Source: Lentisphaerota bacterium
Lineage (GTDB): Bacteria > Verrucomicrobiota > Lentisphaeria > Victivallales > Victivallaceae
Direction: 5' to 3'
Length of the DNA stretch: 64,000 nt
Assembly (NCBI GenBank): GCA_015061625.1
Contig: SUWG01000003.1
Location: 1 to 64,000, forward strand
Shown here piece by piece: positions 11,666 through 40,598 of this stretch. Numbering within the stretch: the first letter of the stretch is position 1; each line of letters begins with the position of its first letter. The translations under genes and the position numbers were made by a program. The notes below the pieces were generated by a model that worked only from the letters and a program-made list of their open reading frames with translations, had not been told where the DNA came from and searched no databases.

Positions 11666-14140
11666 TTATGATTCGATGAGCAACTCTGCTCCGCCGGTCA
11701 AGCCGGATGGCGCACGGAATTCCTCATATTCATTCGCTGAAGTATTGGTGACTTTGACGACCAATTCCCGGCGGTTGGAAATATCGCCCAAAGCCACCTG
11801 AAACGGGGCAAAGGCGGTTTTGCCGCAGAATTTACCATCCACCCAAACTTCGATATTGGCAACGGCTCCGGGGGCGGAAAAAGTGGCATTCCCGGAGTAA
11901 TCGCTGATGTCAAAGCGGTAACTTGCGGTGCCGGAATAAAATATCTGTCCCTGATCGGCCCATGAACCGGCATTGAGAGTATTGCGCCGCGGTGAAATGC
12001 TTACGTCGCATTTTTCCGGGGCGTAAAGTTCCAGAATGTAATAAGTGCCGCCGACCTGATGATCGAATTCACCGGAAATTTCCAGGGCAGTATCGAAGTC
12101 GCCTTGCAGGATGACCGGCAGATAGAATTGATAATCGCCGGTGACTTCCGGTTCATTGCCGGTGCCGACGTGCGGACGGCCGAGATATGCCGGGCGGTGA
12201 TGCCAGGCGGATAATTCAAAAGAGTGTTTTCCGGCGGCCGCCGGGATATCAAATGCCAGATAGCGGTCGGTCAATTCCAGAACTTCAGCACCGCCGGTCA
12301 ATTCTTTACCGTCAAAAAGAATGGTGTCACCGGCGAAAACTTCCGGAATGAGCAACTGCACTTTGCCGGGGATATCCCGGGTGATGGTAAATTCCGAATT
12401 GTAATGAAACGGCACCCGGTTGGGAGCGGCAAAGCCGACTTCTGCCGGAAATGGCAGCGAGACGGATTTGACCTTTTGCGGTGAACGGAAACGCTCAAAC
12501 GGGCCGTTGATAACGGCGATTTCCCCCGGAGCGATGAGCAGATCGATTTTGCGGTTCTCAAATTCCAGCGTGCCGGAAAGTTCCTCTTTGCTCCAGATGT
12601 TGCTGACCAGCAGAAAATGCTGACCATCAAGTTTGCGGCGCATACCGATCAATTCGCCGCCGGTAAAGGTGAAATCTTTTTCCGGCAGTTGCGGCAAACG
12701 GCCGAGGGTTTTGATCGCGCCGGGGGTTCCTTCGGGAACGATGAGGTAACTGATCCCGGCGTGGGTGAGCATATCGGTAAAGGTGAAAAAGTTTTCCGTA
12801 TCGTCAACTCCGGCGCGGACGGCTTCTGAAACATCTTCGACCAGCACCGAGGGGGCGAATTCCCCCTGCGAAGCGATAAAGACATTTTCGGCGATGAAGT
12901 CATTGAGTTGGCGGATGGCTCCGGCCAGACCGAGGTGCTGTTCCGGCGGGGCGATATATTTTCTCCGGCATTCGTGTTTGTGTTCGATGGCGTGGGGAAT
13001 GAAGGTGGTGATCCCGGAAAACAACTGCCAGACGGCGATCAGCCGCAGATCGTTGGCAGTTGCGCCCCAGTTGGTCACGGCAAAAAGTTCACACGCTCCG
13101 CCGCTTTTGCCGTGATGGATGGCGGCACTGGATACATATTTGGCGCGCAGATCATATTTGGTGCGGAAAAAATCCGGATATTGATAAAATTTATCATCAC
13201 CGCCGCGGGAAACTTTCAGATAGTGGCGGCGGTCATCAAAATGGGTGCCGCCATCGAGCAGGAGCAATTCATGGTCGGTGCCGGGCAGGTCACAGTGACG
13301 GTAAAGATGAAACGGATTGCCCTCAATGAAAATGGAACTGCGCTGGCAGCGGGAACGGGGAAACGGCCCGGTATCGCTGGTGTGGAAAGAATATTTGAGA
13401 TTGTGCGCCTGACACCATTTGTGGTTGTTTTCAAACCATTGCAGATAGAGTTTTTCACAGAAGCACCAGTAGTCGTAAGAGTATTTACTGCTTTTGCCGC
13501 TGACGATATCGTGGAGATACGGCGTAAGGTCATAACCGTATTCAGCGGCGAAATTTTCCGCAAAATTCTGCGCCCACGGATAGTAATCTTCCGCGCCCAT
13601 GATCTCCTGGGAAAAGGCATCGTAACGGCGGTTATCCGCATCGGAAAAGATTCCTTCGATGATATTGCCGAAATATTTTCCCAGCCGGGCGGCAAATTTT
13701 TCATAGACCAATTCGATGAAAAGCCGGGAACTTTCCGGTTCTTCAAAGGCCGGAAAGCCCCACGGCACATTTACTGCTTTGACCTGACCGTTGCCGTCGA
13801 TAGTGAGCCGCTGCTGATGCAATTCCGGGGCGATTGCGGCGATCTTGCCGCCCACATCCCCGGAAGGACACCGCCATCCATCCATCAGATAAAGTTTCAA
13901 GCCGTATTTCCCGGCGGCTTTGACGAATCTTTCAATGATCTCAAAGTAAGTTTCTGTGAGAAACACTTCGCTGGCAAAACCGCTGGAAGCACCGTTGAAA
14001 AGGATGCATCCGCCGAATCCGTCATCATATAACTCTTTCATTTTCAAGTCGATGATCTTTTCGGTATAGCCGTTTTCCAGATCAGAACTGTTCAAAAAGT
14101 AGAACGGCAGCGGACGGCAGGCAGTCAGGTCGGTATACAT
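11666..14140 (-). CDS. Large glycosidase-like protein, resembling GH106 alpha-L-rhamnosidases
   Basis: 824 aa without a signal peptide. The N-terminus (PLPFYFLNSSDL, then LKMKELYDDGFGGCILFNG, YGLKLYLMDGWRCPSGDVGG) has the layout of GH106-type barrels, where the second block is the substrate-loop strand. A probable catalytic-region motif is IEGIFSDADNRRYDAF near 175. Beta-sandwich domains follow (about 480-820), including a jelly-roll-like region with FRFDISDYSGNA-type strands. Last gene of the minus-strand unit, 9 bases after the lipoprotein-like glycosidase. Cytoplasmic location, inferred from the missing signal, implies action on imported oligosaccharides. Family assignment is by motif layout only. 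Confidence 0.6.
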   Translation of the reverse strand: MYTDLTACRPLPFYFLNSSDLENGYTEKIIDLKMKELYDDGFGGCILFNGASSGFASEVFLTETYFEIIERFVKAAGKYGLKLYLMDGWRCPSGDVGGKIAAIAPELHQQRLTIDGNGQVKAVNVPWGFPAFEEPESSRLFIELVYEKFAARLGKYFGNIIEGIFSDADNRRYDAFSQEIMGAEDYYPWAQNFAENFAAEYGYDLTPYLHDIVSGKSSKYSYDYWCFCEKLYLQWFENNHKWCQAHNLKYSFHTSDTGPFPRSRCQRSSIFIEGNPFHLYRHCDLPGTDHELLLLDGGTHFDDRRHYLKVSRGGDDKFYQYPDFFRTKYDLRAKYVSSAAIHHGKSGGACELFAVTNWGATANDLRLIAVWQLFSGITTFIPHAIEHKHECRRKYIAPPEQHLGLAGAIRQLNDFIAENVFIASQGEFAPSVLVEDVSEAVRAGVDDTENFFTFTDMLTHAGISYLIVPEGTPGAIKTLGRLPQLPEKDFTFTGGELIGMRRKLDGQHFLLVSNIWSKEELSGTLEFENRKIDLLIAPGEIAVINGPFERFRSPQKVKSVSLPFPAEVGFAAPNRVPFHYNSEFTITRDIPGKVQLLIPEVFAGDTILFDGKELTGGAEVLELTDRYLAFDIPAAAGKHSFELSAWHHRPAYLGRPHVGTGNEPEVTGDYQFYLPVILQGDFDTALEISGEFDHQVGGTYYILELYAPEKCDVSISPRRNTLNAGSWADQGQIFYSGTASYRFDISDYSGNATFSAPGAVANIEVWVDGKFCGKTAFAPFQVALGDISNRRELVVKVTNTSANEYEEFRAPSGLTGGAELLIES

Positions 14141-18141: not shown

Positions 18142-18656
18142 ATTTTCACCTCAATTTCACGGGTTAAATGGAGTTTGCTGCCGGAGTAACTGCCGGAAAA
18201 ACTTTCGGTAAAGAGAATATTTTTATCCTCTTTGAAGCGCATTTCAGGGGCGCAAAGGAGCAGATCGACGGGTTTTTCCGGAGTACCGTCGATTTGGATA
18301 TCCAGTTTGATAATGTTGCTTGCGCTGTTGAATTGCCACGTCATAGCGATCGAAACGCCGGGGTATTCCAGCAGAAATTTCCGGTCATTGCCGCCGCAGA
18401 AAATACCTTTGGTTCGGATGATGAATTCATCGGCAGTTGCTTTTATTACTTCAAATTCCGCCCAGCGTTCATCCCGGAGCGTGTATACGGCATCGCCGTC
18501 GGTAAGTTGATCCTGCCAGCGGGTACTGCCGGCAGGATTGCCTGCCGGGTCGGTGAAAAACACCGGAAAGAGGTGGCCGTCAAAGAAAGTACAGCCGAAT
18601 TTATCACCTTGCATGGTGATATTGCCGGTGATATCATTTTTCTTTATTTCAAGCAT
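18138..18656 (-). CDS. Hypothetical protein, possible carbohydrate-binding beta protein
   Basis: 172 aa, no signal peptide and no family recognised. Alternating hydrophobic strands throughout (GCTFFDGHLFPVFF, FLLEYPGVSIAMTW, IIKLDIQIDG) suggest an all-beta fold like the galactose-mutarotase or DUF-type sandwich domains often fused to large glycosidases. It overlaps the LamG/DUF6259-like gene upstream by 8 bases and the glycosidase downstream by 4, so it is translationally coupled to both and may act as a split-off accessory domain of the 1065-aa protein. Confidence 0.6.
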   Translation of the reverse strand: MLEIKKNDITGNITMQGDKFGCTFFDGHLFPVFFTDPAGNPAGSTRWQDQLTDGDAVYTLRDERWAEFEVIKATADEFIIRTKGIFCGGNDRKFLLEYPGVSIAMTWQFNSASNIIKLDIQIDGTPEKPVDLLLCAPEMRFKEDKNILFTESFSGSYSGSKLHLTREIEVKI

Positions 18657-21600
18657 AGATGAATCTCCATTTCTTTAATTCGCAGTGTGAACACTCGCTC
18701 AACAGGAAGAATATCCGGTGGTCGCCGGAAATTTTCTGTTCCAGATCTATTTTGAGTGTAACTTCCCCGATGGAACGGGTCAGCGGCGGATAGGCCTTCG
18801 GCACATCAAAGGTGGCGAGGATATTTTCCTTATCCAGCGAATCCATCCGCAAGGTGACGAAACCTACGGGTCTTTCCACCGGAGCATCGAAAACGGCTTC
18901 CACGGCGATGACATTATCCATATTGACCGTGCCGAAAGCGGATAATTCATAACTCATTTCGGTTGAGAGTTTGCCGATGGGCAGCGGTTGGGAAACCCAA
19001 TCATCCGCCCGGAATGTTTCCGTGGCCGGCAACTCATCCGGCGTGACGGCAAAGGGATCTTTTTCCTGCGGGATGCGGGCAATTACTTCCAGAGCCTTTT
19101 CCATTTTGGCGAATTGGTCAAGCGGTTTTTTCCCGGCCGGATAAGAGTAGAACACCATCGCACAATGCGGTTTCAACTCATAATCGAGCGTGTTATCTGC
19201 CGGATAAGCGCATTGGCTGCTTTGACCATTCATAAAATATACGGTCAAATCGCGGGCATGATCGAAAGCATTGAGTTTCACTTTACCGCTGCGTTTTTCG
19301 CTTGTGTTGTTGACTAAAACGGTCACTTCGGTGTCTTCGTAACTCCAGCAGGTCGTCTGCACTGCGGCGGTGGAAACGTAGTAAGTTCCCTGTCTGCCCC
19401 AGAAGCGGGAAATTTTGGGAACGCCCGGAATCAGCGTTACCGGTTTATCCATGTTGCCCAGATTGAAGAAATCCAGCAAAGCAAAGCGCAAATGCATAAG
19501 CATTTTGACAAATTTACGGAATTCCCCGCGCACCGGAGAGGTGATTTTGTGATGCTGGAACCAGCCGAGCTGTTCGCCATTGGTAAACTGGGTGGAAACT
19601 TTGGGGAAGGCGGCTTCCGGCTCTTCACCGACTCCATCCAACCCGATGAATTGGGTGTGACCGGCGTAAACTTCAGTAAAAAGCGGCACCTGACCGTCGA
19701 GCATCCACCGCCAGTTGAGCAAACCGTGGAAAAGGGCGACGCAATGTTCGGCATTGTCCTCGGTGGTCAGCACCATATCCGGTGAATGTTTCCGCCAGAA
19801 ATCCCGGATTTTGCTGTAAACCGGGTAGTGTCCGTCTTTGAACCAGTTATCTTCACCGATGCGGTGGCCGTGTTTCTCTGAATAGCATGGGCGCGGACGG
19901 GCGGCACCGATCTGATCGGCATAAACTCCGTCAAGGCCGTATTCGGCGATTTTGGTGGTCATTTCGTACTGATACTTCATATAAGTTTCAGTATGCGGGC
20001 AGAGGACTGCGGTGGGCAGACCGTACATTTCCACGGCCAGTGAACCATCTTCATCGATGACGGCATTGGGTACGGCGACCTTTTCGTAGAGGTAATCTTT
20101 GCCCCGGCGGTCGGGGGTCTGCCAGATGCGGGCGGTGGTATACGGCACGGTGCGGATATCATATTTACGCAAATCGGCGACATCTTCGATGAATTCCGGA
20201 GAGGCTTTGACCATGGGCGAGAGCCACGAACCGCGTTCATACCAGTCGTAAACGTGCAGAGCCAGCGGCAATTCCAGATATTCCCGGAGTTTTTTCAACG
20301 CCGGTGAAATGGCGGCCAGCGGGTGATAAGCGAGGTCGATGCGGAGCCACAAAGTGTTGTTCCACATCCATTCCGGGTGATCGGCAGGATCATCGGAGCG
20401 CGGCACGAACCACCATGCCCCGGAATCGATCAACTGTTGGCGGTAGATCTGACCGGCTTCAAACCAGTTGCCCCGGAAAAGTTCGATCCGGGCAAAGGAA
20501 AGCGACTGGTAACGGTTGGGTTTGCGGTCGGCATCATAAGGTGTTTTCCAGTCAAAGGAGAATACGCAACCGGAACTGCCGGCATTGAAGTTGAATTCCT
20601 TGGCTCTGGCCACCGGATCGCCCACGCCGCAGTAAACGCCGCTTTCCTGATCGTAATATGCGCCCATTTGCAGCGAGCAGTTGCCGCGGGGGTAGGGGCT
20701 GGTGTAGGAAACGTTGCGTTTGACGGCATCGGGCATTTCCATACCGGACATCTGGGGTACGAGCATGGTGTCGCATCCGTGGTCAAGCACTGCGGTCGAA
20801 ACCAGCGGGAAATTGACATCACGGAGCAGGAATCCCTCACTTTTATCCTGAATATCCAGATCAAATTTGATGCAGTCTGCGGCGAAACTCCAGTTGGTTT
20901 CCCCGCTGAAATCCGGAGTGGTCAGGGAGTTGAAACTGATTTTGAAGTTCCAGCATCCGTCGGCGGCTCTGACCGGTTCGGCGGCAAAGGATGAGGTCAG
21001 ATTTTCCGACAGTGCCGTGAAGAAGGTTTTTTCGGTATTTTTCTGCAAAGCGAAACGGTACCAGCAGTTTTCCGGTGAGAGCAATTCTCTGCCGGTTTTC
21101 CGGTCATACCATGATACCGGTATGGTATGAGTGCTGTTGCGGGCGATGACCAGGGTCGAATCCACGCTGTCAAGTTTGATCAACTCGACACTTTTCCAGT
21201 CGAAAATCAGCGAGTAACTGCCTTGTGAAATGGTCAATTTCGCCTGACGGATAACGGGATCATTTTCGCTGGCGAGCAAAGATTTTTCCTCATTGGTAAG
21301 CGGCGGGAAAACCCGGAATCCGGGAGTGACCATAGGTTCGGCAAGCACCAGATCCCGGATCTCACTTTCGGTGAACATTTTATCAAAGCTCCGGATCTTG
21401 GCGATCTCCCCGTCAAAGCCGTGTTCACCGGAAAGGCTTCTGCCTTTGCCGACGGTCAATGGCGCATCGGAAGGCACCGGAAACGATTTGTCATAACGGA
21501 TACCGCAAACCGGCACGCCGTCGAGATAAAGTTTGCCGTCGGTCCAATCTTCACCCTGTGAGCCGACGTGATGGTGGCCGATGACCAGTGCGGCATGGTG

Positions 21601-21846
21601 ATATTTGCCATCATCGGGCAGTACATCTTTACTGACCATGAATGACATCCAGCGGCCATCCGCCGCCTGATAGTTGGCGTAAAGTTTCGCTCCTTCATGG
21701 GCAAAGACCACATGGCCGGCCTGAAAGAGGAATACGCCGCTGCGTTTCGGGGTGTCCCGGAATACGGCGGCAAAGGTCATGCCTTTACCGGCATCGATAC
21801 CGGGCAGTTCCATCGGGAGAACCGGATTGTTTAACTCGATTGGCAT
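18649..21846 (-). CDS. LamG-like plus DUF6259-like putative glycosidase, no signal peptide
   Basis: 1065 aa. An N-terminal LamG/concanavalin-like domain (about 20-170: KLYLDGVPVCGI, FDGEIAKIRSFDKMF) precedes a large catalytic-like region. A barrel from about 500 carries VYADQIGAARPRPC and TTEDNAEH, and LFTEVYAGHTQFIG follows. These blocks recur in the 1140-aa protein at 34909 (IYHDQVSASRPFAC, DTEDASDAH, LFAAVYAGRTQFTG), so the Asp and Glu within them are the best catalytic candidates. I assign DUF6259-like from general resemblance only. Lacks an export signal, unlike the paralogue. RBS AAGGAAAA before ATG. Confidence 0.65.
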   Translation of the reverse strand: MPIELNNPVLPMELPGIDAGKGMTFAAVFRDTPKRSGVFLFQAGHVVFAHEGAKLYANYQAADGRWMSFMVSKDVLPDDGKYHHAALVIGHHHVGSQGEDWTDGKLYLDGVPVCGIRYDKSFPVPSDAPLTVGKGRSLSGEHGFDGEIAKIRSFDKMFTESEIRDLVLAEPMVTPGFRVFPPLTNEEKSLLASENDPVIRQAKLTISQGSYSLIFDWKSVELIKLDSVDSTLVIARNSTHTIPVSWYDRKTGRELLSPENCWYRFALQKNTEKTFFTALSENLTSSFAAEPVRAADGCWNFKISFNSLTTPDFSGETNWSFAADCIKFDLDIQDKSEGFLLRDVNFPLVSTAVLDHGCDTMLVPQMSGMEMPDAVKRNVSYTSPYPRGNCSLQMGAYYDQESGVYCGVGDPVARAKEFNFNAGSSGCVFSFDWKTPYDADRKPNRYQSLSFARIELFRGNWFEAGQIYRQQLIDSGAWWFVPRSDDPADHPEWMWNNTLWLRIDLAYHPLAAISPALKKLREYLELPLALHVYDWYERGSWLSPMVKASPEFIEDVADLRKYDIRTVPYTTARIWQTPDRRGKDYLYEKVAVPNAVIDEDGSLAVEMYGLPTAVLCPHTETYMKYQYEMTTKIAEYGLDGVYADQIGAARPRPCYSEKHGHRIGEDNWFKDGHYPVYSKIRDFWRKHSPDMVLTTEDNAEHCVALFHGLLNWRWMLDGQVPLFTEVYAGHTQFIGLDGVGEEPEAAFPKVSTQFTNGEQLGWFQHHKITSPVRGEFRKFVKMLMHLRFALLDFFNLGNMDKPVTLIPGVPKISRFWGRQGTYYVSTAAVQTTCWSYEDTEVTVLVNNTSEKRSGKVKLNAFDHARDLTVYFMNGQSSQCAYPADNTLDYELKPHCAMVFYSYPAGKKPLDQFAKMEKALEVIARIPQEKDPFAVTPDELPATETFRADDWVSQPLPIGKLSTEMSYELSAFGTVNMDNVIAVEAVFDAPVERPVGFVTLRMDSLDKENILATFDVPKAYPPLTRSIGEVTLKIDLEQKISGDHRIFFLLSECSHCELKKWRFIYA

Positions 21847-21904
21847 AAATCGTTTTCCTTAAAATATACTGATTTTTCAGTGATGCAACCGGAATTTTGG
21901 AGAC

Positions 21905-21951
21905 AATACCCCTTGCAAACGGCATTTTCTGCCGTGTTTTTCCGGGGTATT
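21905..21951. repeat. Nested inverted repeat between two operon genes
   Basis: Outer arms AATACCCC / GGGGTATT enclose an inner hairpin CGGCA / TGCCG. There is no T run on either strand, so it is more likely an RNA-processing or stability element between the IGxGHxEGG gene and the large enzyme gene than a terminator. Confidence 0.45.
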
Positions 21952-21974
21952 GCAGTTGAAGTTTTGAGGGGATT

Positions 21975-22823
21975 TTACTCCTCAACTCCGCCCTCGGCCT
22001 GTTCTTCGGCGGCGGCTTTCCATGATGCTTCCGGAGCGGTGAACCCCTTGATCGTCATAGTGTAGACCATGGATTTCCAACCGGCCTGAAGTTCCTTGGC
22101 GAAACCGGGCTGATAGTAAAGTTTGTGGCTGTTGGAGCGATCCCAGAAGCGGCAGCCTCCGGCCATGGCGGTATCATCATCGAGAATGGCGGTGAAACCG
22201 ATCTGACTTTCGGGGATATACATGGCGAACCAGAGTGTACGCAGTGCAGTGCGGTGCAGATGGAATGCGCCTTTACTCTCAAATTTGCCGGAAAACATGG
22301 CGTCGTTGTGCATTCTGGCGATCCATTCAGTGGTCTTTTCCGTAAAGCAGAACTGGTGGACATAGATACCCGCCAGAGCTTGATTTTCCAGTGCTTCGAT
22401 CTGGGAGGAAACTTTCACTCCGTCGGCGGAAACTTCGATCGTATAGGTGACTTTGAGTTTGTCACACTGGGAAATGCGGATCACTTTGACATTGTTGCCG
22501 TTGAAAACTTTACGGCCGGGGTTGGTATCGCTGACCCCGTCAGTGATGACTTCCAGAGAGAGGATTTTTTCCACGCCGCCTTCTTTGTGACCGGAACCGA
22601 TGAAACGGGGGCCTTTGACTTCCGGGATCGAGGGGAGAATGACGATAGTGGCATTGTAACCGTTGCCGTTGCAGATGACCACATTTTTGTAACTGATGGT
22701 CTGGATGGTTTTGTAACCGTTGAAAGTTACCTTGTAATCACCGCTGGTTACGGTAAAGTTGGCGTGGAGTTGGATGACACCGGCTGCAAAAGCCAGCAGA
22801 CAGAGGGTGAAAAGTTTTTTCAT
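21975..22823 (-). CDS. Secreted protein of an unrecognised family (IGxGHxEGGxE motif)
   Basis: 282 aa with Sec signal MKKLFTLCLLAFAAGVIQLHA. I do not recognise the family. Three blocks are shared with the proteins at 22839 and 38341: FIGSGHKEGGVE (about residue 78), IYVHQFCF (about 155) and FWDRSNSHKLYY (about 230). The strand pattern suggests a beta-sandwich of the mutarotase or hydrolase-clan type, and conserved His/Glu in the first block could be catalytic or metal-binding. C-terminal acidic tail (AAAEEQAEGGVEE). In the operon directly before the DUF6259-like gene, the same neighbour pair as at 34.9-39.5 kb, which implies a joint role. Confidence 0.75.
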   Translation of the reverse strand: MKKLFTLCLLAFAAGVIQLHANFTVTSGDYKVTFNGYKTIQTISYKNVVICNGNGYNATIVILPSIPEVKGPRFIGSGHKEGGVEKILSLEVITDGVSDTNPGRKVFNGNNVKVIRISQCDKLKVTYTIEVSADGVKVSSQIEALENQALAGIYVHQFCFTEKTTEWIARMHNDAMFSGKFESKGAFHLHRTALRTLWFAMYIPESQIGFTAILDDDTAMAGGCRFWDRSNSHKLYYQPGFAKELQAGWKSMVYTMTIKGFTAPEASWKAAAEEQAEGGVEE

Positions 22824-22838
22824 TTTTAATTCCTTTTT

Positions 22839-23627
22839 TTAGTGGTTGTTGACTATCGGTAAATTTTTCCAATATTCCGGTAAGGTTTCCGCCCACGCTT
22901 TGACGGTGCCGGTGAAATTTTCTTCCGCAGCGGGCAGAATGGTTTGCCGTATGATAAATTCAGGTGATATTTCTCCGGCGGGAATATCGCCTTTGAAGTC
23001 AAGTTCGCAGTAAAATTTGTGATAAATATGCCGATCCCACAATTTCCCTGTGGCGATCTCTGCCAGCCGGGGGTCGGGAGCAAAAGCGATGGCAAGTTGG
23101 TATGCCGGGGCGAAAAGTGCGGCGCACCGACAGTGACCGAAATAGATCATTTCGCCCTGACTCTGACAATAGCCACTCTGCCATGAACCATTTCCGTCCA
23201 GAAATATATAACGGTCAAACTCTGTTGACCAACTGTATTGATGCACATAAAAGAGCGCGATTTTCTGGATATCTGCCGCCTGATAGCGGCAGGATGAGAG
23301 CGTTTCCATTTCCGTTGAGTGATAATCAAGGGAAATCTGCAGATTTTCCAGTCGGGTTTTTCTTTTCCAGTGCAGTTCATTGCCGGCGGCAATGGCGATA
23401 TTCAAATCATCGAATATCTCACTGCCGCCCTCATGATGACCGACACCGATGAATTTCCCCGGAGCATTGGCGATCACGGTGCCGTTGAAGCCCGCATCAC
23501 AGCAGATGACTTTGCCGTCAAACTGCCACTCTTTGAATGCAAATGCATTCTTTCCGTCAAGCATTATCTGACTTTTTCCGCAGGATAACGGAATATCCTG
23601 CGGATTTTGGAAACGGGGAATATTCAT
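22839..23627 (-). CDS. Cytoplasmic member of the IGxGHxEGGxE family
   Basis: 262 aa, without a signal peptide. Shares FIGVGHHEGGSE (about residue 75), LFYVHQYSW (about 130) and LWDRHIYHKFYCE (about 205) with its two paralogues in the window. Function unknown. The missing signal suggests it handles the same ligand inside the cell that the secreted paralogue meets outside. It is 15 bases upstream of the secreted paralogue in the same operon. Confidence 0.7.
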   Translation of the reverse strand: MNIPRFQNPQDIPLSCGKSQIMLDGKNAFAFKEWQFDGKVICCDAGFNGTVIANAPGKFIGVGHHEGGSEIFDDLNIAIAAGNELHWKRKTRLENLQISLDYHSTEMETLSSCRYQAADIQKIALFYVHQYSWSTEFDRYIFLDGNGSWQSGYCQSQGEMIYFGHCRCAALFAPAYQLAIAFAPDPRLAEIATGKLWDRHIYHKFYCELDFKGDIPAGEISPEFIIRQTILPAAEENFTGTVKAWAETLPEYWKNLPIVNNH

Positions 23628-23647: not shown

Positions 23648-24445
23648 TTACAGAGTTTTGCTGTTGCCGCTGGCATCAAGCACGGTGAAGGTCTTGCTGG
23701 AATCCCAGTTCTTGATCGTGCCGCCGTCAACTGCTTCGGCGTGACCGTCGAGCATCGCTGTATTCATGCGGTCAGCATGACGGAGCATGAATTTCGCCGC
23801 CTGACCGGAAGCGATCGAAACACCTGAAGCTTTATAGAAGTAGCCGAATTGTCCCTGACCGATGGTATTGGTATTACTGTCACACTGGGAGTCTCCGACC
23901 AGCATGAACGTCGTGGAACTCTGGACTTTGCCGGTGTGAACTACCGTGGAAGAAACCACCGGCCCCTGGGCAAGTGCGCCGGATTCTGCTGTATAGCGGG
24001 GATGGGCACTGAAGTGATATGGCGCACCGTAACCGGCTTTGCCGAAGTTGTTGTTGGTCGTATTGGGCAGACCGCTCGGACAGTTTACCAGATCCAGATC
24101 CGTCGGCAGGTAGTCGCCTCTTTGACACCAGGTATTGTCAACTTTGGTTGCAAACATCGCACTTCCCCAACCGCGGTCGGTTTGGAACGCTAACACGATA
24201 ACGCCGTCATTGGCATCGCCGTATTGCTGAAACGCCATGCCGATCTGTTTCAAATTGTTGATACAACTGGCGGCACGGCCGCGTTCACGGGCGGAGTTGA
24301 GGGCAGGCAGCAAAATCGCCGCCAGAATGGCGATAATGGCGATCACGACCAGCAATTCGATCAGCGTGAAGCCGTACGGCTTCATTCTCTGTGCAGAGAA
24401 TGAATTACTTTTCACAAGGCACTGTTTCCGGGAACTTTTTTTCAT
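23648..24445 (-). CDS. Pseudopilin, DUF1559-like, with hairpin-encoded leader
   Basis: 265 aa from the ATG at 24445; its AAAGGA site is formed by the last codons of the MFS gene (MKG-stop). The track's longer frame is not used. Leader [19 protein letters not shown], then [18 protein letters not shown] with Gly at -1 and Glu at +5, the standard prepilin peptidase and helix signature. After SARERGR and a conserved CINNLKQIG, a globular beta region follows and the C-terminal [16 protein letters not shown] shows the H-x(9)-DG motif. Likely processed by a type II secretion/type IV pilus prepilin peptidase and placed at the cell surface. Residues [11 protein letters not shown] come from the 38-base double hairpin. 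Confidence 0.85.
24367..24404. repeat. 38-base double-hairpin element (copy C)
   Basis: An 18-base perfect palindrome (arms TGAAGCCGT / ACGGCTTCA, 24367-24384) overlaps by TTCA a 24-base inverted repeat (arms TTCATTCTCT / AGAGAATGAA, 24381-24404). Lies inside the pseudopilin coding region immediately before FTLIELLV. Compared with copy D, substitutions sit in loops or paired positions that stay paired. Confidence 0.8.
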
Positions 24446-24450
24446 AATGC

Positions 24451-25824
24451 TCATCCTTTCATATTTTGGGGTGAATCGGAAACACTCTTTGACTCTGCGG
24501 CTTTGATCTTTTTCCACCGCAAATAAACCATTATCAGAAACATCGAGGCCGCCAGTGTGAAAACAAAGTCCCACACATAAATAAAACGGTAGCCCCAGAT
24601 ATCCACGACTTTGCCCGCCAGCCAACTGCCGATGACACTGCAAATACAGGTGATCATCATCGCCGCAGAACAGAATTGACCATACTTTTCTTTCGGCAGC
24701 AGCAAAATCAGCATCGGGGTCGAGGCGAGCGACTGCATCGTATAAATCAGCACCAGCACCAGACCGATAACGAGAAATGAATTGTAATCCACCGCCCAGA
24801 AATAGCCCCAGATATTCAGAAACAATACGATCACTCCCGTAAAGAAGTAGAGCAGTAACGCATTGAATTTGTCAATGCAGAACATCATTACCGCCAGCAC
24901 CCCCAGCGATACGATTTTGCCGTATGCCATGATCTCCCCATACTGCTCCGTACTCAAATTCAAATCTCTGGTCGCAAAAAGAATGTTGAACATCCCCCGG
25001 CAGCTGGTCGAGACATTGGTCAGCGCAAATCCCAGAAACAACAGCAGATAAAACGGTTTGGAAAAACAATCTTTGAAGTAAGTCCGGAAGTTCTCCACCG
25101 TGCGTTTGTGCCACGGCAGATCATTATCCGGCACTTCCGGCGGCGGATATTCACCCTCTTTTACAAACAAACATAATCCGGTGAAACTGATGGCAAACAA
25201 TGCCGCAATACCCGTGTAGAGCCACTGGGCATGAGTTTCAGCATATTTGAGCAGAAACATATTGAAAATAAAGCCCGCCGCGGTCGCCACCAGACCCTTT
25301 GCCACCTGAAAACGGCCGATGAATTCTCCGGGGATCACATCCGGAGCCAGATAACAGGAAATAATGCCGATCAGCAATCCGGCAATATAAAAACAGAGAA
25401 ATACCACACTGTAAAGCACCAGCATCAGATAGTTGCCGTTGACCGACGGGAAAAATGAGGCGATCGAAGAACGGAAAAGCGGCAGCCACCCCAACAGCAA
25501 CCCGAAAAACGTGACAAACGGGATCGACCAGAGCATGAATGGCATCCGGCGGCCCATTTTTGTCCTCGTGCGGTCACTGGCGGTGCTGATGATCGGATTC
25601 AGGAAAAAATTTGCCAGCGCAGGCAGACTGCCCAGCACCACTCCCATCCATTCGCCGGAAGCTCCCAGAGCCTTGAAATTCAGCGGCATCAATGTCGGCA
25701 CGAGGATATACTGGATCATGTCGTACCAGAATATACCCCACAATACCCAGAAACAAACGATCAGCAATCTCGCCATATTATAGCGCAATGTGCCGACTGT
25801 ATAGATTTTACCCTCTTTTTCCAT
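24451..25824 (-). CDS. MFS/GPH-type sugar transporter
   Basis: 457 aa with about 12 hydrophobic segments. The loop between helices 2 and 3 carries [16 protein letters not shown], the conserved major-facilitator motif in the form found in glycoside-pentoside-hexuronide and SLC45-like sugar symporters; a central hydrophilic loop ([16 protein letters not shown]) separates the halves. It would import mono- or oligosaccharides released by the neighbouring hydrolases. Probable first gene of the minus-strand operon; its stop codon region provides the ribosome-binding site of the pseudopilin 5 bases downstream. Confidence 0.85.
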
Positions 25825-32786: not shown

Positions 32787-33953
32787 ATGGGAAGTAAGGT
32801 GAATTTCGGTATCATCGGCTGCGGTAACATGGGGTCGGCTCATGCCCAGATGATGCAAAAGATAGGCAATGTGGAATTGGTTGCAGTCTGCGACATCAAC
32901 GAAAAGGCGTTTGAGCGTATTCCGGCGGATATCCGGAGCAAAATCAAATGCTATACCGATGTCAATGAATTTTTTGCCCACGACGGGCTGCAGGCGGTGT
33001 TGATCGCCGTGCCGCACTATTTCCATGTCGATCTGGCGATCGCCGCTATGGAACACGGCAAACACATCATCGTGGAAAAACCGATCTCCGTCCACAAGGC
33101 CGAGGCCCAGCGTTTAATCGATGCGGCGGAGAAATATCCGGAATTGGTGCGCAGTGCCATGTTCAATCAGCGCACACTGCCCGCCCACCGCAAACTTAAA
33201 GCCCTGATCGACGGCGGTGAACTGGGTAAGATCAACCGGGTCAACTGGATCATTACCGATTGGTTCCGCACCCAGCGTTATTATGATTCGGGCGACTGGC
33301 GTGCCACCTGGGCCGGTGAGGGCGGCGGGGTGCTGCTCAACCAGTGTCCGCACCAGTTGGATCTGATGCAGTGGCTTTTCGGCTTGCCGGAATTGGTCAG
33401 TGCGCAGGTGAAGATCGGCAAATACCACGATATCGAAGTGGAAGATGAGGTCAATGCTTATCTGGAATATGCCAATGGTTGCGTGGGCAACTTCATCACC
33501 ACCACCGGTGAGGCGCCGGGAACGAACCGTCTGGAAGTCACCGCCGAGCGCGGCCGGGTGATTCTGGAAAACGGCGAATTGCATTTTCTGCGCAACGAGG
33601 TGGAAACCAGTGTGCAGATCCGGGAGAGCGAATTCGGTTTCAAGAAACCGGAAACGTGGGATTGCAAGATCAACATCGGCACCGAGAGCCGTCTCCAGCA
33701 CGCCGTGGTGGTGGAAAACGTGGCCAATGCCATTTTGAATGGTGAAAAACTCATCGCTCCGCTGGCGGAGGGCATCCGCGGTCTGGAATTGGGCAATGCC
33801 ATGCTTATGAGCGGATTGAAAAAGATTCCGGTGACTCTGCCGATCGACAGTGCCGCTTATGCCGCCATGCTTCAGGATTTGATCGCCAACAGCAAGCGCG
33901 GAGCGAAAGAGGTCAAGAGCGACAAGAACGAAAACATGAGTTCGACATACTGA
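32787..33953 (+). CDS. Gfo/Idh/MocA-family oxidoreductase
   Basis: 388 aa. An N-terminal Rossmann domain with GIIGCGNMGSAHA binds NAD(P); VEKPIS (Lys-Pro catalytic region) lies near residue 95, and GEGGGVLLNQCPHQLDLMQW is the conserved substrate-domain stretch with the catalytic-region His. Typical length. Oxidises or epimerises a sugar or cyclitol. AGGAG RBS 9 bases before ATG. First gene after a consensus promoter and followed by a sugar isomerase/epimerase, a common inositol/rare-sugar pathway pairing. Confidence 0.9.
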   Translation: MGSKVNFGIIGCGNMGSAHAQMMQKIGNVELVAVCDINEKAFERIPADIRSKIKCYTDVNEFFAHDGLQAVLIAVPHYFHVDLAIAAMEHGKHIIVEKPISVHKAEAQRLIDAAEKYPELVRSAMFNQRTLPAHRKLKALIDGGELGKINRVNWIITDWFRTQRYYDSGDWRATWAGEGGGVLLNQCPHQLDLMQWLFGLPELVSAQVKIGKYHDIEVEDEVNAYLEYANGCVGNFITTTGEAPGTNRLEVTAERGRVILENGELHFLRNEVETSVQIRESEFGFKKPETWDCKINIGTESRLQHAVVVENVANAILNGEKLIAPLAEGIRGLELGNAMLMSGLKKIPVTLPIDSAAYAAMLQDLIANSKRGAKEVKSDKNENMSSTY

Positions 33954-33972
33954 TTTTGAAAGGATTTTGAAT

Positions 33973-34884
33973 ATGTTTCTTACCGGATTTGCAGATGAGG
34001 CGGGGCAGGATCTCGCCATCCAGATCAAGGCGACCAAAGAACTTGGTTGGAAATTTATCGAAGCGCGCGGTATCAACGGCAAAAATCTTGCCACATTGAC
34101 CGATGAGGAGTTTGATACGGTTTGCGGACAACTGGATGAGGCCGGAGTGCAGATCAACTGTTTCGGCAGCGGCATTGCCAACTGGAGCAGACACCCGCGC
34201 AAAGAGGAAGATTTTCAGGCGTCGGTCAAAGAGTTGACCGATGCGTTGCCGAGGATGAAAAAACTGGGGATCAAAATCGTGCGGGGCATGAGTTTTCTGA
34301 CTCCCAAAGATGAACAGCCGGATTCCCCGGAACTGGAAAAGATCATCTTCCAGAAAGTCCGTCATCTGGTGAAAATCTGTGCGGATAACGGCATTATTTA
34401 CGGCCATGAAAACTGCATGAATTACGGTGGATTATCCTACAAACACACGTTGCGGCTGATCGACGGGGTCAATCACGAGAATTTCAAATTGATCTACGAC
34501 ACCGGTAATCCCTGTTTCAACTACCGCTGGATCGGTGAACCGCCGTATCCGTTGCAGAGTTCATGGGAGTTTTACCGTCAGGTCAGAGAACACGTTGTAT
34601 ATGTGCATATCAAAGACGGTCTGGCGCTCCCGGAAGCCGACGGAGTGACCCGGCCGGGATGCAAATTCACCTATGCCGGTTTCGGTGCGGGTGATGTGCG
34701 GGCGATCGTCAGCGATCTGCTGGAGCGCGGTTACGACGGCGGATTTTCCATGGAACCGCATCTGGCGGTGGTGTTCCACGATGCTGACGGCGGCGAAACC
34801 GAGGCCGACGTGCGTTATAACAACTATGTTTCCTACGGTAGAAAATTTGAAGAATTGCTCCGTGACTGCGGCTGGAAATTCTGA
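33973..34884 (+). CDS. Sugar phosphate isomerase/epimerase (xylose-isomerase-like TIM barrel)
   Basis: 303 aa from the ATG at 33973 (AGGA 8 bases upstream). AP-endonuclease-2/IolE-like fold: metal ligands fit GHENCMNYG (Glu), IYDTGNPC (Asp), VYVHIKDG (His) and GGFSMEPHL (Glu). Such enzymes interconvert ketoses/aldoses or dehydrate cyclitols. Immediately follows the Gfo/Idh gene with which it probably shares a pathway. Substrate unknown. Confidence 0.87.
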   Translation: MFLTGFADEAGQDLAIQIKATKELGWKFIEARGINGKNLATLTDEEFDTVCGQLDEAGVQINCFGSGIANWSRHPRKEEDFQASVKELTDALPRMKKLGIKIVRGMSFLTPKDEQPDSPELEKIIFQKVRHLVKICADNGIIYGHENCMNYGGLSYKHTLRLIDGVNHENFKLIYDTGNPCFNYRWIGEPPYPLQSSWEFYRQVREHVVYVHIKDGLALPEADGVTRPGCKFTYAGFGAGDVRAIVSDLLERGYDGGFSMEPHLAVVFHDADGGETEADVRYNNYVSYGRKFEELLRDCGWKF

Positions 34885-34908: not shown

Positions 34909-37900
34909 ATGAAAAAAATTATCGTTGCATTCTTGTTCACCGGCCTGATGTGGTTGTCTGCCTATGGGGAATTGATGTTTTCCGAAAATGCCTCAATGGC
35001 CGACGGAGTTATTTCATTCCGTAACGGTTCCGGATTTGTTCAGGAAAGCAACAGCGGTAATTTTGATGTTTCCAAAGGTGTAACGGTGTCAGCGGCGGTG
35101 CGTTTGAACCGCCGTCCGCCGATCACCGGAAGCGGATTTGATGCAGATAAAAATATTATTTTCCAGCATGATATAATCATCAGCAAAGGCAATTCCTTTG
35201 TATTCGGCCGCCGCAGTGATGCGTGGGTCGATCAGATGTATATCAATTTTCACAACGGCGAGAAGTGGTGTGTTCCGTTGCGCAAGGCTGCTCCGACTCC
35301 GGAATACGGCAAGTGGGCGATCTGGGCCGTGACCATCGAGCCGCACTACCGCCGGGAAGAGGGCCGTCGGTATTCGATAATCACCCTCTACCTCAATGGT
35401 GAGGCACAGTACCGGGCCGAGGTTGACGGCAATCCGTCGGTTTCCGATGCTCCGCTGATTTGGGGGCAGGGCAGCGGTATCAACGGACAAAATTGGGGAT
35501 TGAATGGCGATATTGCAGAAATCCACTGTTTTGACCGGGTGTTATCCGATGATGAAGTTATGTTGCTGGCCCGTAATTCCAAATTGGTAAAGGTCGATGT
35601 TCCGGGATTTGCAGAAATCACTCCCCGGTTGGATAATTTGCTGAAAAGTTTTGAAAATCAGGGTGGCAGTCAAGCGGCGTGGTTACGCAGCCGTCTGCGT
35701 TTTGCCGCAGTCAACGGCCTTGAACAGCAGTTGATCACCGATTTGCTGGAGGGGGCATTGAAAGTGGCTGCAAGTGCGGATGACGGTGAAGAATTCATCC
35801 GGGCGATGACTGCTCAAAATTCACCGTTGCAGTTGATCGATACCGGAAATACTTTTGTGTTGGTGCTGACCGGCAACGGCGAGGGCGTATTTCCGATTCT
35901 CGGAGTGTGGGAAAAGAGCGGGAAAAGGGAAATTTTCGGCAAACAGAGTTTCAGTTGGAGTATTGAGGGAGTGAATTCCGGGGAAAAATGGAGTTGCACA
36001 TCCTATGGCAAGTGGATTTGCCGCAAGGTGGCAGATAACCGTTTTCAGGCGGTTTGGCCGGTTGCTGAAAAACTGACGGTAACTTGCAATTTCGGATTTG
36101 AAAATAACCGGATCGTTTGTGATTTCGCCGCTGACAATCAGGATGGTCAGTTGCGTTTGGAAAAATTCAATTTCCCGGTGGTGAGGATCGCGGAACGTGC
36201 CGTTGACGGCGGCTGGCTGGTGCATCCATGCCAGAGCGGTCTGCTTTATTCAGATCCGGTGCGTACCACACTTCCGGCGGCGGCATGGTATCCCTGCGGC
36301 CGGTTGAATATGCAGTTCGGTGCGTATTATGACGGCGTTTCCGGCATCTATTTCTCACCGGAAGATCCCGATGCAAAAATCCGGGAATACACCATCCGCA
36401 GCCGCGGTGGAGATCTGGAAATGGCGTGGAGCAATCCGGTGCCTTTCGATGTGCAGAAATCCGGCGGCAACTCCATTATCCGCACTTCTCCGGCGGCTTT
36501 GGAATTGTTTACCGGCAACTGGTTTGATGCGGCGATGTGCTATAAACGTTTTGTGGAAAGCCGGGCGAAGTGGAACCGGCCGCGTTTCCGGGAAACACCG
36601 CAATGGTTTACGGAAAATACGCTTTGGTTCAGCCATTGGACATTCAAAGATGAAGATTTGGCCGCCATGCCCGGAATCATGCAGAAATTGCGGGATTTTT
36701 ACGAAATGCCTTTCGGTGTGCATTGGTACCGGTGGAATGATCCGGCCCAGGGGGCATTCCCGCACAGTTTTGCCAAATCCGGCATCGACCGGATCAATGC
36801 TCAATTACTGGCTATGGGAGTGTATACCAAAGCGTATATCGACAACCGTCTGTGGTCGGAGCGTGACGGGGCACACCGTCAGGTCGATTTGGAATTCAAT
36901 CAATTCGGCCGTCATTATGCGGTGTTGAATTCTGATAATACGATGAATTATGAGCGTTACAGTTCGGCCTGCCGGGATGTGGTGATGTGTCCCGGTGTGG
37001 CGGCCTGGCAGGAAAAGATGACTTCCGTGACCGACCGGGTGGCATCTTACGGATTTTCGATGATCTATCACGATCAGGTGAGTGCTTCACGGCCTTTTGC
37101 CTGTTTTCACACCGGTCACGGTCACTTGCTCAATGATCCGTCTGTCTGGGGTGAAGGTTACTGGAAAATGTTTGAGATGATTGCACAACTTCAGGCGAAA
37201 TATCCGCAGTTGTGCCACGATACAGAAGATGCTTCCGATGCTCATTTGCCGTTTTTTGACGGATTTATGCCGTGGCGTTGGACGGATCAGAGTCAGATTC
37301 CGCTTTTTGCGGCGGTCTACGCCGGCCGTACACAATTCACCGGGCGTTCATTTGATCATACCAGCGTGGGAGATGAGGTAAGTTTCATGGTCAAGTGTGC
37401 CAGTCAGCTGGTTCAGGGGGAACAGATCGGCTGGTTCACTTACGGCATGGTCATCAAATCTCCGCGGCGGATCATTTTTTCCAAGCAGACTGCCCATTTG
37501 CGCAGATTGCTGTTGAGTTTTTTCAATGGTGGCTCGATGCTTAAGCCATTGGATTTCGTAACTGCTCCGGCGATGCAAAGTACCATGTGGGGGATTGCCG
37601 CTCCGCAACCGCACGAAGTGACTCTGCCGGAAATACTGCATTGCCGTTTCCAAAGGGGCAGTGACGGAGCTGAAATGATCCTCTGGATAAATACTGCGGA
37701 TCACCGGGCTTCGGCCGAAGCGGTCCGGCCGGATGGGGAATATTGGATCTGTTCGGTTGACGGGTCGGTTCGAAAACTCGGTGAAAAGGCCGGTATCGGA
37801 TTGGAGCCTTACAGTTTTGAAGTGTGGACAACTGCTTCTGAAAGTGAAGCAAAACTGATCGCTGAAAATCTCAAGCGTATATCCGGGTTTACCGCCGGGA

Positions 37901-38331
37901 CTTTGCTCGCTCAATTCGGCACTCTGACCACCCATGACGGAGAAACTGCCGGATTGATTTTTGACAATGCTTCAGGTAACGGTGTCAGGGGCGAAAAGGG
38001 AATGGTGGAGATCACCGGCAATGGTACATCCACCTTGCAATACAAAATAAAAATGCTTCTGGAACCGGGCAAACGTTACCGCTTGCGGATGATGATGCGT
38101 AAGAGCAGTGACGGTGAAGGATATGCGGCCATCGCCAACTATTCAACGGATCGTAAACTGAAGTTTTACGGCACTTGCGGAGCCCATGTGCCAAGTGACG
38201 GTAACTGGCACGAGGTGGTGCTGGAGTTTACCGCCGGAGATGATTATTTCAACTGCGGTTTGTTTCTCTACAACCGCAAATCATCCGGCACAATCGCCAT
38301 CGATCAGATTTCACTCAAAGAGATAAAATAG
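34909..38331 (+). CDS. Secreted LamG plus DUF6259-like putative glycosidase
   Basis: 1140 aa with Sec signal MKKIIVAFLFTGLMWLSAYG. LamG-like domain about 25-220 (GDIAEIHCFDRVLSDDE), a catalytic-like region about 300-900 sharing YHDQVSASRPFAC, DTEDASDAHLPFFDG and AVYAGRTQFTG with the 1065-aa protein at 18649, and a C-terminal CBM-like domain (IAIDQISLKEIK ending). The exported counterpart of that protein; the pair keeps the same neighbour, an IGxGHxEGG protein. Polysaccharide hydrolysis is inferred from architecture; the exact family is not certain. Confidence 0.67.
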   Translation: MKKIIVAFLFTGLMWLSAYGELMFSENASMADGVISFRNGSGFVQESNSGNFDVSKGVTVSAAVRLNRRPPITGSGFDADKNIIFQHDIIISKGNSFVFGRRSDAWVDQMYINFHNGEKWCVPLRKAAPTPEYGKWAIWAVTIEPHYRREEGRRYSIITLYLNGEAQYRAEVDGNPSVSDAPLIWGQGSGINGQNWGLNGDIAEIHCFDRVLSDDEVMLLARNSKLVKVDVPGFAEITPRLDNLLKSFENQGGSQAAWLRSRLRFAAVNGLEQQLITDLLEGALKVAASADDGEEFIRAMTAQNSPLQLIDTGNTFVLVLTGNGEGVFPILGVWEKSGKREIFGKQSFSWSIEGVNSGEKWSCTSYGKWICRKVADNRFQAVWPVAEKLTVTCNFGFENNRIVCDFAADNQDGQLRLEKFNFPVVRIAERAVDGGWLVHPCQSGLLYSDPVRTTLPAAAWYPCGRLNMQFGAYYDGVSGIYFSPEDPDAKIREYTIRSRGGDLEMAWSNPVPFDVQKSGGNSIIRTSPAALELFTGNWFDAAMCYKRFVESRAKWNRPRFRETPQWFTENTLWFSHWTFKDEDLAAMPGIMQKLRDFYEMPFGVHWYRWNDPAQGAFPHSFAKSGIDRINAQLLAMGVYTKAYIDNRLWSERDGAHRQVDLEFNQFGRHYAVLNSDNTMNYERYSSACRDVVMCPGVAAWQEKMTSVTDRVASYGFSMIYHDQVSASRPFACFHTGHGHLLNDPSVWGEGYWKMFEMIAQLQAKYPQLCHDTEDASDAHLPFFDGFMPWRWTDQSQIPLFAAVYAGRTQFTGRSFDHTSVGDEVSFMVKCASQLVQGEQIGWFTYGMVIKSPRRIIFSKQTAHLRRLLLSFFNGGSMLKPLDFVTAPAMQSTMWGIAAPQPHEVTLPEILHCRFQRGSDGAEMILWINTADHRASAEAVRPDGEYWICSVDGSVRKLGEKAGIGLEPYSFEVWTTASESEAKLIAENLKRISGFTAGTLLAQFGTLTTHDGETAGLIFDNASGNGVRGEKGMVEITGNGTSTLQYKIKMLLEPGKRYRLRMMMRKSSDGEGYAAIANYSTDRKLKFYGTCGAHVPSDGNWHEVVLEFTAGDDYFNCGLFLYNRKSSGTIAIDQISLKEIK

Positions 38332-38340
38332 GGAGGATGT

Positions 38341-39549
38341 ATGAAGTTTCTGTCGGCATTGTTTGCGGTTTTCGGTCTGTTTTTTGCTTTGACTGCTGCT
38401 CAAATGAGTATGGAATCCGGCAAATACAAAGTGGTATTTTCCGATATGCCGCACCGTTGGAGTATCATTCAGATATTCTGTGACGGAGTGGAGTTGGGAA
38501 CCAATACCGGTTATTACAGCAATATCATGTCTCCGACACCGGGCAAATATATCGGAGCCGGTCACAATGAGGGCGGTTTGGAGGTCTTTCTGGAAGGTAC
38601 GGTGACGGTGGATGAAAATGCTCCGGTGCCGGTGGCAGGAGGAGTATTCAAAGGCAATAAGGTGGTGTTCCGTAAGAGTTCGACTCTGGCCGATGTGAAA
38701 ATGATGGTAACTTATACGCTCACTCCGGAAGGTTTGCGGATCGACAAGCAATTTACCGCATTGAAAGAACAGCCGTTGCACCAGTTGTATATCTGGCAAT
38801 TCTGCTGGAATGTGCAAAGCAGTGACTATCTCTTTATCCGGCGCAACGGCACTGTGGGCAAAGGAACTTTTCTCAACGATGAAAAGATGCGGGTTTACGG
38901 CGAAAGAGAAGCATACTTTTTCAGCCAGTATCTGCCGCAGGCCAAATATGCCACGGTGAATTTCATGCCGGAATTCGGCCGGGTCACCGGTATCAATCTG
39001 CTGTGGGACAGAAAGGTTTATCACAAGTATTATTACTGGATCGATTTGCCGAAAACTCTACCGGCAGGATACACTTCTCCGGTGGTTTCGATGATCGTGC
39101 GGGCATTTCCGGCGGCGGATAAAGCCGAGTGGGAAAGCAAAGCCCAAGCCGAAGCGGCGGCATTGCTGGCTCAATATCCCTTTGCCAGACCGGCGATCGA
39201 GCGTGAGGACGGCGTGACGTTGCCGCCGTCGGATAAGTTTCAGGTACAGAAATTCCCGTTGGAAGTTGTTCCGTCGGCCCGTTACAGTATTTCGTTTGAA
39301 ATTTGCAAAAATCCGCAGATGAGTCAGAAGCCGACCGATCACTATGTGGTGGTGGGATACTATGATTCAGCGAGAAAATTCCATGTGCTTGGTCAGTATG
39401 CGTCAAGAGTGGCCGCTGACGGAGAATTCCATCAGGTGCAGGGCGGATTTCAGACACCGTCTGGTGAGGAGGAGATATTTGTTTATGTTTACAACAGCCG
39501 CTCCACCGGTTCGGTAACGGTTCGCAATCTTAAACTGACCAAATTCTAA
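38341..39549 (+). CDS. Secreted IGxGHxEGGxE-family protein with C-terminal CBM-like domain
   Basis: 402 aa with Sec signal MKFLSALFAVFGLFFALTAA. Shares YIGAGHNEGGLE (about 78), LYIWQFCW (about 148) and LWDRKVYHKYYYW (about 220) with the paralogues at 21975 and 22839. It is longer: residues about 285-402 form an extra CBM-like sandwich (VQKFPLEVVPSARYSISFEI, GSVTVRNLKLTKF) comparable to domains in the secreted enzymes here. Function unknown. Lies 9 bases after the DUF6259-like gene, repeating the neighbourhood seen in the minus-strand operon. Confidence 0.73.
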   Translation: MKFLSALFAVFGLFFALTAAQMSMESGKYKVVFSDMPHRWSIIQIFCDGVELGTNTGYYSNIMSPTPGKYIGAGHNEGGLEVFLEGTVTVDENAPVPVAGGVFKGNKVVFRKSSTLADVKMMVTYTLTPEGLRIDKQFTALKEQPLHQLYIWQFCWNVQSSDYLFIRRNGTVGKGTFLNDEKMRVYGEREAYFFSQYLPQAKYATVNFMPEFGRVTGINLLWDRKVYHKYYYWIDLPKTLPAGYTSPVVSMIVRAFPAADKAEWESKAQAEAAALLAQYPFARPAIEREDGVTLPPSDKFQVQKFPLEVVPSARYSISFEICKNPQMSQKPTDHYVVVGYYDSARKFHVLGQYASRVAADGEFHQVQGGFQTPSGEEEIFVYVYNSRSTGSVTVRNLKLTKF

Positions 39550-39571: not shown

Positions 39572-40598
39572 ATGAAAAAGTCTGACAGTTTCCGCCATAG
39601 CGGAGTAAAGCACGAGTGCTTTACTCCGCCATAGCGGAGTAAAGCACGAGTGCTTTACTCTTATTGAACTTCTCGTAAGCACAGTTATCTCATCATTGCA
39701 TTTTTTGACACAAAAAACTGCGATTGAAACTAAACAAAGAATACCGCTTTTCTTGAAAAGAGAAGTGGGGTTTGGGGAGAGGGGAAAAACCTCTTTTCCC
39801 GTGAAAAGAAGTTTTTCCCCTCTTCCCAAGAGCGCATTCACTTTGATAGAATTGCTGGTAGTCATTGCCATCATTGCGATCCTGGCGGCGATTTTGCTTC
39901 CGGCACTCAATTCTGCCAGAGAACGCGGCCGGGCCTCCGCTTGCATCAACAATCTCAAACAGATTGGCAATGCAGCCGGGATGTATGCGGATGATAACGA
40001 TCAGTATATGGCCGGATATTTTATCACTCCGACTTTGAAAAATCAGAATCAACGCTGGGTGGTAAGACTTTTTCAGTATACCGGAAGCAATCCGCACGTT
40101 TGGGTTTGTCCTTCGGCTCCGCAGATGGACAGCAAAGCCATGTCGGCATTGGATTCATCCGGCAGCGGTGATCTGGCAACCAATGATGCTTTGCGGAACA
40201 ATTTGAATCGCACCATCGGTTACGGTATCAATGCCTACGGCTGGCAGGGGATTTATGAAGTCAATGATACCGGATTGTGGGCGTTTCTCTGGTCGATGCA
40301 AAAGGTTGGCAAAATGGGCAATGCCAGCAGTCTGATCTACTCCGGAGATACCACGATCGACAATCAGAGTGATGAGGATTTTGCTCCGGAATCGGCCAAT
40401 AAAAATCAGGAGTATCTGCTCTGGTTTTCAGCCTCGGTTTATCCGACAAGCAGTATGAGTCTGCGTCCGGTACACAGCGGCAACAAGATGATTAATCTGC
40501 TGATGGCCGATGGTCATGTGGAAAATCAGAGTGATACCACTGTCAGAGGATGGGTTGCGGATGCGGCACAGAAAAAATTGCATTTTACGGTACAATAA
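39572..40598 (+). CDS. Pseudopilin with frameshifted leader and tandem FTLIELLV motifs
   Basis: The ATG at 39572 (GAGG upstream) reads [17 protein letters not shown] and hits a stop because a 34-base unit is present twice (39592-39625, 39626-39659). With one copy the frame is open to 40598 and the leader reads FTLIELLV, a 53-residue linker, then a second [18 protein letters not shown]. The track lists only the downstream part from a TTG at 39696 (300 aa). The two LIELLV copies use different codons. The body is an ordinary DUF1559-like pseudopilin with C-terminal [17 protein letters not shown] (H-x(9)-DG type). Possibly expressed only after loss of one repeat, or from a weak internal start. 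Confidence 0.72.
39592..39660. repeat. Tandem 34-base duplication of the double-hairpin element (copy A)
   Basis: Two exact 34-base units. The second complete element (39623-39660) is an 18-base hairpin (arms ACTCCGC / GCGGAGT, loop CATA) overlapping by GAGT a 24-base hairpin (arms GAGTAAAGCAC / GTGCTTTACTC). Adjacent elements share the terminal ACTC, so the period is 34 and each copy shifts the frame by one. Confidence 0.92.
39774..39827. repeat. Long hairpin inside the pseudopilin linker
   Basis: Arms of 25 bases (GGGGAGAGGGGAAAAAC... / ...GTTTTTCCCCTCTTCCC) with two mismatches, one a G-U pair, and a 4-base loop, entirely within coding sequence between the two FTLIELLV motifs. Free of a T run, so not a terminator. 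Sits in the linker segment that may have been inserted. Confidence 0.85.

Follow-up and report, generated by a model that had tools for sequence, protein, structure and literature searches.

Several described protein groups share the galactose-mutarotase-like beta-supersandwich or resemble it in their genomic setting. Hexose mutarotases of the GalM and YeaD types (Aldose_epim, PF01263) use a C-terminal Glu as catalytic base. In GH36, GH97, GH38 and a Flavonifractor galactosaminidase, supersandwich domains are tied to glycosidase catalytic domains, and OpgG/OpgD (GH186) provide an example of the fold acting as a glycan hydrolase. GH123-type enzymes also contain a sandwich domain (GH123_N, PF19543). 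A further point of comparison is DUF1735 of Bacteroidota PULs, which has an Ig-like fold and for which a spacer role was proposed (PMC11216935).

Here, we describe a protein family that is present three times in a window of DNA (the whole stretch of 64,000 nucleotides that we analysed) from a Lentisphaerota bacterium of the gut. It resembles GalM and YeaD in predicted fold and in the size of a stand-alone domain, but lacks sequence similarity to them and a conserved counterpart of their catalytic Glu, has a second His in only one subfamily, is mostly secreted, and is coupled to glycosidases. The predicted fold and the tie to glycosidase catalytic domains are shared with GH36, GH97, GH38 and the galactosaminidase; in contrast to these, the family is mostly encoded by a separate gene beside its partner and has its own invariant His-Glu-Lys-Tyr set. 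OpgG/OpgD also have the predicted fold, but show no sequence similarity to the family, and we noticed no membrane-glucan genes near its members. Like DUF1735 (PMC11216935), the family is a beta domain of unknown function, linked to glycan-utilisation genes and found in multimodular fusions; unlike this Ig-like domain, it has stand-alone genes, polar residues that do not vary, and a predicted supersandwich fold. The sole sequence-level link is to the sandwich domain of GH123_N enzymes, which are repeatedly fused with or adjacent to the family; the link is weak for the family as a whole and strongest for subfamily C.

Three paralogues in the window and a fourth in the genome

A sequence-only reading of this DNA had reported three members that share blocks and adjoin LamG/DUF6259 enzymes at two loci, and HMM, blastp and Pfam searches of the proteins and their neighbours bear this out. 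The ORFs at 21975-22823, 22839-23627, and 38341-39549 are homologous over the whole domain, at 22-28% identity (blastp E-values between pairs of 1.8e-30, 1.3e-24, and 1.9e-15). With an HMM built from two of the proteins, the third is always retrieved (137, 121, and 72 bits, versus at most 7.8 bits in 1000 shuffles). Each protein has a single copy of G.GH.EGG.E (at residues 72, 76, and 61 of members 1, 2, and 3) and a single copy of WDR...HK.Y (at residues 222, 227, and 197).

Member 1 (P0001, 402 aa; 38341..39549, plus strand) is composed of a signal peptide (about residues 1-20, 38341..38400), recognised as a hydrophobic segment and modelled as a helix of low pLDDT, followed by a predicted mutarotase-like beta-supersandwich domain, a helix, and a C-terminal CBM-like jelly roll (39196..39546). 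On the same strand are block 1, IGAGHNEGGLE (residues 71-81, 38551..38583), block 2, YIWQ (residues 150-153, 38788..38799), and block 3, WDRKVYHKYY (residues 222-231, 39004..39033). The two other members are encoded on the minus strand. Member 2 (P0002, 282 aa; 21975..22823) has a signal peptide and the supersandwich domain, with block 1, IGSGHKEGGVE, at 22569..22601 and block 3, WDRSNSHKLY, at 22116..22145. Member 3 (P0003, 262 aa; 22839..23627) has the same blocks as IGVGHHEGGSE (23418..23450) and WDRHIYHKFY (23010..23039). Judging from its N-terminus, it lacks a signal peptide and is presumably cytoplasmic; there is no space for such a peptide upstream, where the preceding gene ends at 23648. 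It is strongly diverged (end branch of 2.3 on the family tree), and no orthologue was found in the 78 genomes of the taxonomic family. The genome encodes a fourth, more distant copy (G000:C17:7975-8814) that adjoins two genes without Pfam hits.

Nearly all family members begin with a hydrophobic stretch of the kind seen in signal peptides, the exception being member 3 (assignments made from hydrophobicity alone, leaving out L122, which has an N-terminal extension). This agrees with the secretion pattern first proposed, i.e., signal peptides in members 1 and 2 and none in member 3. The CBM-like addition claimed for member 1 is weak in Pfam (PF22637, E 0.0034, below the cut-off) and appears as a confident beta domain in the AlphaFold model; the tail resembles CBM_4_9-type domains. 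Below-cut-off matches to PF22637 were found in 5 of 22 members.

An undescribed family within a known fold

The AlphaFold models of members 1 (pLDDT 91.9) and 2 (pLDDT 89.6, pTM 0.87), which share most alignment rows and are not fully independent, are all-beta. Both match galactose-mutarotase-like beta-supersandwich domains (fold search probability 1.00, E 1e-9 to 1e-6), and this is the predicted fold of the core. The matches include the Flavonifractor galactosaminidase, YeaD-like and GalM mutarotases, the sandwich domains of GH36, GH97, and GH38, OpgG/OpgD, and the periplasmic domain of YidC; structures 3nre, 3k25, and 4bze were matched by the predicted model with probability 1.00, E of about 1e-7 to 1e-6, and TM of about 0.5. 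Viral structure matches were mostly long, low-TM matches to tail proteins. Since TM is ~0.5 (single-domain model) and identity 7-14%, the fold does not give the function.

The core domain had only chance-level matches in Pfam (hmmscan with the three proteins, with 16 relatives, and with 22), NCBIfam (hmmscan of the three proteins and 16 relatives), and PHROGs (the three proteins), and no significant match among PDB sequences. The Aldose_epim (PF01263), GH123_N (PF19543), and DUF6259 (PF19773) profiles did not match it; the GH123_N and DUF6259 matches sit on fused or adjacent partners rather than on the family domain. Among the papers covered by literature searches, none dealt with the family or with DUF6259. 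The family is thus undescribed, as the initial reading had it, and profile searches place none of the three members in a characterised family.

Conservation of the blocks extends far outside this genome. Among the 78 genomes of the same taxonomic family, 23 had matches in a single-sequence search, some further matches being to the CBM-like tail alone. A core-domain profile detected the family in 38 of the 388 genomes sampled from the phylum (27 of 198 genera). The 16 loci from a scan of named genomes belong to Lentisphaeria MAGs, sheep colon being one of their sources, to one MAG of Victivallaceae and one bacterium without assignment, and to MAGs whose labels are Omnitrophota and Planctomycetota.

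The members fall into three subfamilies that align as one family over 234-253 columns (hhalign P of 7e-41 for A-B, 3e-41 for A-C, and 2e-22 for B-C). Subfamily A, that of the window members, has GH.EGG.E. Subfamily B has mostly GSGH.E(S/T)G..E, an HPW motif, and WDR..YRK.Y. In subfamily C, the GH.E loop is deleted and Y150, W222, and K229 are retained, these three being conserved in all subfamilies (residue numbers of P0001 throughout). Across the rows of A and B, where pairwise identity goes down to ~20%, H75 and E81 are present in all, K229 in all but one (a truncated row), and there is little variation at E77, W222, and Y231. For the whole family, the signature reads IG.GH.E(G/S)(G)..E, Y150, and W222(D/E/N)...Y(H/R/N)K.Y. 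Of the conserved His, Glu, and Asp first pointed out, His and Glu stand as the invariant H75 and E81 of A and B; the Asp of WDR was rejected as an invariant catalytic residue, position 223 being D, E, or N.

The conserved residues differ from those of mutarotases. Profiles of GalM and YeaD from related genomes show no link with that of the family (P of 0.04 and 0.18). The His/His/Glu set is not conserved: A and B share one invariant His, and a second is found in B only, where HPW resembles the H..F motif of mutarotases. No conserved Glu lies C-terminal of W222 in the family alignment, as judged by conservation rather than structural superposition. As the family has no conserved counterpart of the C-terminal catalytic Glu, we do not favour classical mutarotase activity, and the early hint of a mutarotase holds for the predicted fold, not for the catalytic residues.

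Association with DUF6259- and GH123-type enzymes

Both loci of the window encode a partner in which Pfam detects DUF6259 and Laminin_G_3. The first (18649..21846, minus strand; PF19773 E 4e-39, PF13385 E 4e-9) is a LamG and DUF6259 protein that lacks a signal peptide; its gene directly follows those of members 3 and 2. The second (34909..38331, plus strand; PF19773 E 2e-42) has a signal peptide, LamG, DUF6259, and a CBM-like tail, and ends 9 bases before member 1; this gene order is kept in L064, L065, L066, and L117. The CBM-like domain of member 1 is homologous to the C-terminus of this enzyme (blastp E 4e-8), and such homology between the tail of the family protein and the C-terminal segment of its enzyme was found in all eight DUF6259-type pairs tested. 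Compartments match as well, in that member 3 and the enzyme at 18649-21846 both lack a signal peptide and the enzyme of the secreted member 1 has one, although this is a single case and the secreted member 2 sits between member 3 and that enzyme.

Overall, 25 of 37 loci have a DUF6259 or GH123-type enzyme that is fused to the family protein, encoded right next to it, or one gene apart from it. Several loci are orthologous, such that these are not 25 independent events. The partner is a DUF6259 enzyme at both loci of the window and in L064-L069 (the match being below the curated cut-off in L067-L069), L110, L112, L113, L117, and L123, and of GH123 type in L071, L072, L073, L075, L076, L077, L079, L111, L113, and L118-L121. 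In the 2.7-Mb genome of the window, DUF6259 genes number only 6 and GH123_N genes about 6, so we estimate that adjacency by chance would occur in ~1% of cases (assuming ~2300 genes). When 41 members are placed on a tree, partner type follows the branching and needs 3 changes; shuffles need 8.6, and 0-1 of 500 are as low, a result to which near relatives contribute. The partnership with DUF6259- and GH123-type enzymes is a firm result. Exceptions are the Omnitrophota-type members (L070 and L074), which adjoin argS rather than a glycosidase, and L114, L124, L126, and L127, which also lack such a partner. Subfamily C has lost the His-Glu loop and is still fused with or near GH123_N enzymes; the partnership can therefore do without that site. 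Deoxysugar glycans, initially suggested as substrates, are plausible here given the neighbouring GH29, GH78, and FGGY-kinase genes, but not for the whole family, whose partners elsewhere are of GH123 type.

Other features of the loci

Between member 2 and the DUF6259 enzyme at 18649-21846, the region 21847-21974 is rich in inverted repeats (AATACCCC...GGGGTATT, with an inner ACGGCA...TGCCGT) and may fold into an RNA hairpin with a role in adjusting expression of the operon genes. The second DUF6259/family pair is preceded by neighbouring genes for a GFO/IDH/MocA-type oxidoreductase and a xylose-isomerase-like TIM barrel (32787-34884). GFO-type genes recur near other family members (L064-L066, L070, L074, L121, L126, and L129), and L122, a distant member, has a 3-keto-disaccharide hydrolase-like gene nearby; these neighbours could point to a 3-keto-sugar route. 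Prepilin-like DUF1559 proteins with an N-methyl motif (23648-24643, 39696-40598, and 41384-42181) adjoin family members in the window, and likewise at many other loci. Two large ORFs of the glycan clusters, at 11666-14140 (824 aa) and 42197-45562 (1121 aa), have no significant Pfam hit. L073:5314-7151 and L029 encode tandem members of subfamily C, two of them with lipobox-like N-termini. By eye, the ORF at 60462-62807 begins with a TIR-like region, contains TPR-like repeats, and ends in a long tail of (E/T/S/P) repeats.

Candidate functions

We propose that these proteins are dedicated partners of DUF6259- and GH123-type glycosidases and that those of subfamilies A and B are probably catalytic, a reading for which we see about equal chances of being right or wrong. 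The stand-alone, usually secreted supersandwich domain would act on the same glycan as the adjacent or fused enzyme. In A and B, the His75-Glu77-Glu81 loop, Tyr150, and the Trp222...Lys229-x-Tyr231 strand would most likely form one sugar-binding pocket with active-site chemistry, and the protein would probably be a carbohydrate-active enzyme working alongside its partner. We infer catalysis because of the invariant His, Glu, Lys, and Tyr, of the member with its own CBM-like tail, and of the cytoplasmic member: the His, Glu, and Lys would suit an active site, and the two latter proteins would be easier to understand as enzymes than as modules that capture glycans. Subfamily C, with its His-Glu loop deleted, would probably be only a structural or binding module; this loss argues that some members are only modules.

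The same loss, in proteins still fused with or near GH123_N enzymes, speaks for a rival reading of the family as a purely non-catalytic ancillary module. Its members would be detached and duplicated N-terminal supersandwich domains of TIM-barrel glycosidases, binding glycan or enzyme in trans and raising efficiency. The family domain is indeed N-terminal in fusions, and the sandwich domain of GH123-type enzymes aligns with subfamily C at a probability of 76% (hhalign P 2e-5) and with the family at 39% (P 3e-4), reversed and unrelated controls having P of 0.02 or worse. However, the alignment spans only ~100 columns, with block 3 outside, and a HMMER search of GH123-type sandwich domains with the family HMM was not significant. 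Iterated HMMER had suggested that GH123-type enzymes contain a second copy of the domain (37 bits); this was rejected as profile contamination, being not significant with a profile lacking those segments, and only the weaker hhalign link stands. Moreover, the invariant His, Glu, Glu, Lys, and Tyr of A and B exceed the needs of a scaffold, and the CBM-like tail of P0001 and the existence of a cytoplasmic member also speak against such a module. We regard it as a possible explanation, if a somewhat improbable one.

Two other activities deserve consideration. An extracytoplasmic mutarotase or epimerase could interconvert the anomers of the sugar freed by the partner enzyme; YeaD-type and GalM structures are among the best fold matches, and this would agree with the HPW of subfamily B and with a His placed in a loop that precedes a strand. 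We consider it unlikely, given the missing conserved Glu after W222, the confinement of the second His to B, and the lack of both profile similarity to GalM or YeaD and an Aldose_epim match. Alternatively, a polysaccharide lyase or another new carbohydrate-active enzyme could act on an independent bond before the partner does, the pairing reflecting only a shared pathway. It would account for the conserved His, Lys, Tyr, and Glu and for distant members adjoining BNR sialidase-like and 3-keto-disaccharide hydrolase-like genes, but fusion, tail sharing, and co-inheritance are tighter than a shared pathway requires. The sub-threshold similarity to the heparinase II/III beta domain (E 0.1) that pointed the same way was dropped, as it disappeared with a deeper profile, and we hold this explanation to be very improbable.

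Returning to a dedicated and probably catalytic partner, its boldest form would make these proteins a new class of mutarotase-fold carbohydrate-active enzymes with a His-Glu-Glu/Tyr/Trp/Lys-Tyr site, the obligate second component of two-component DUF6259- and GH123-type glycosidases, co-inherited across Lentisphaeria and beyond; we find this doubtful. Lentisphaeria and their relatives in herbivore guts have many uncharacterised sugar-chain enzymes. A conserved partner with defined, mutable residues offers a direct way to ask if these enzymes need a second component, and a family name would cover proteins that current databases leave unlabelled.
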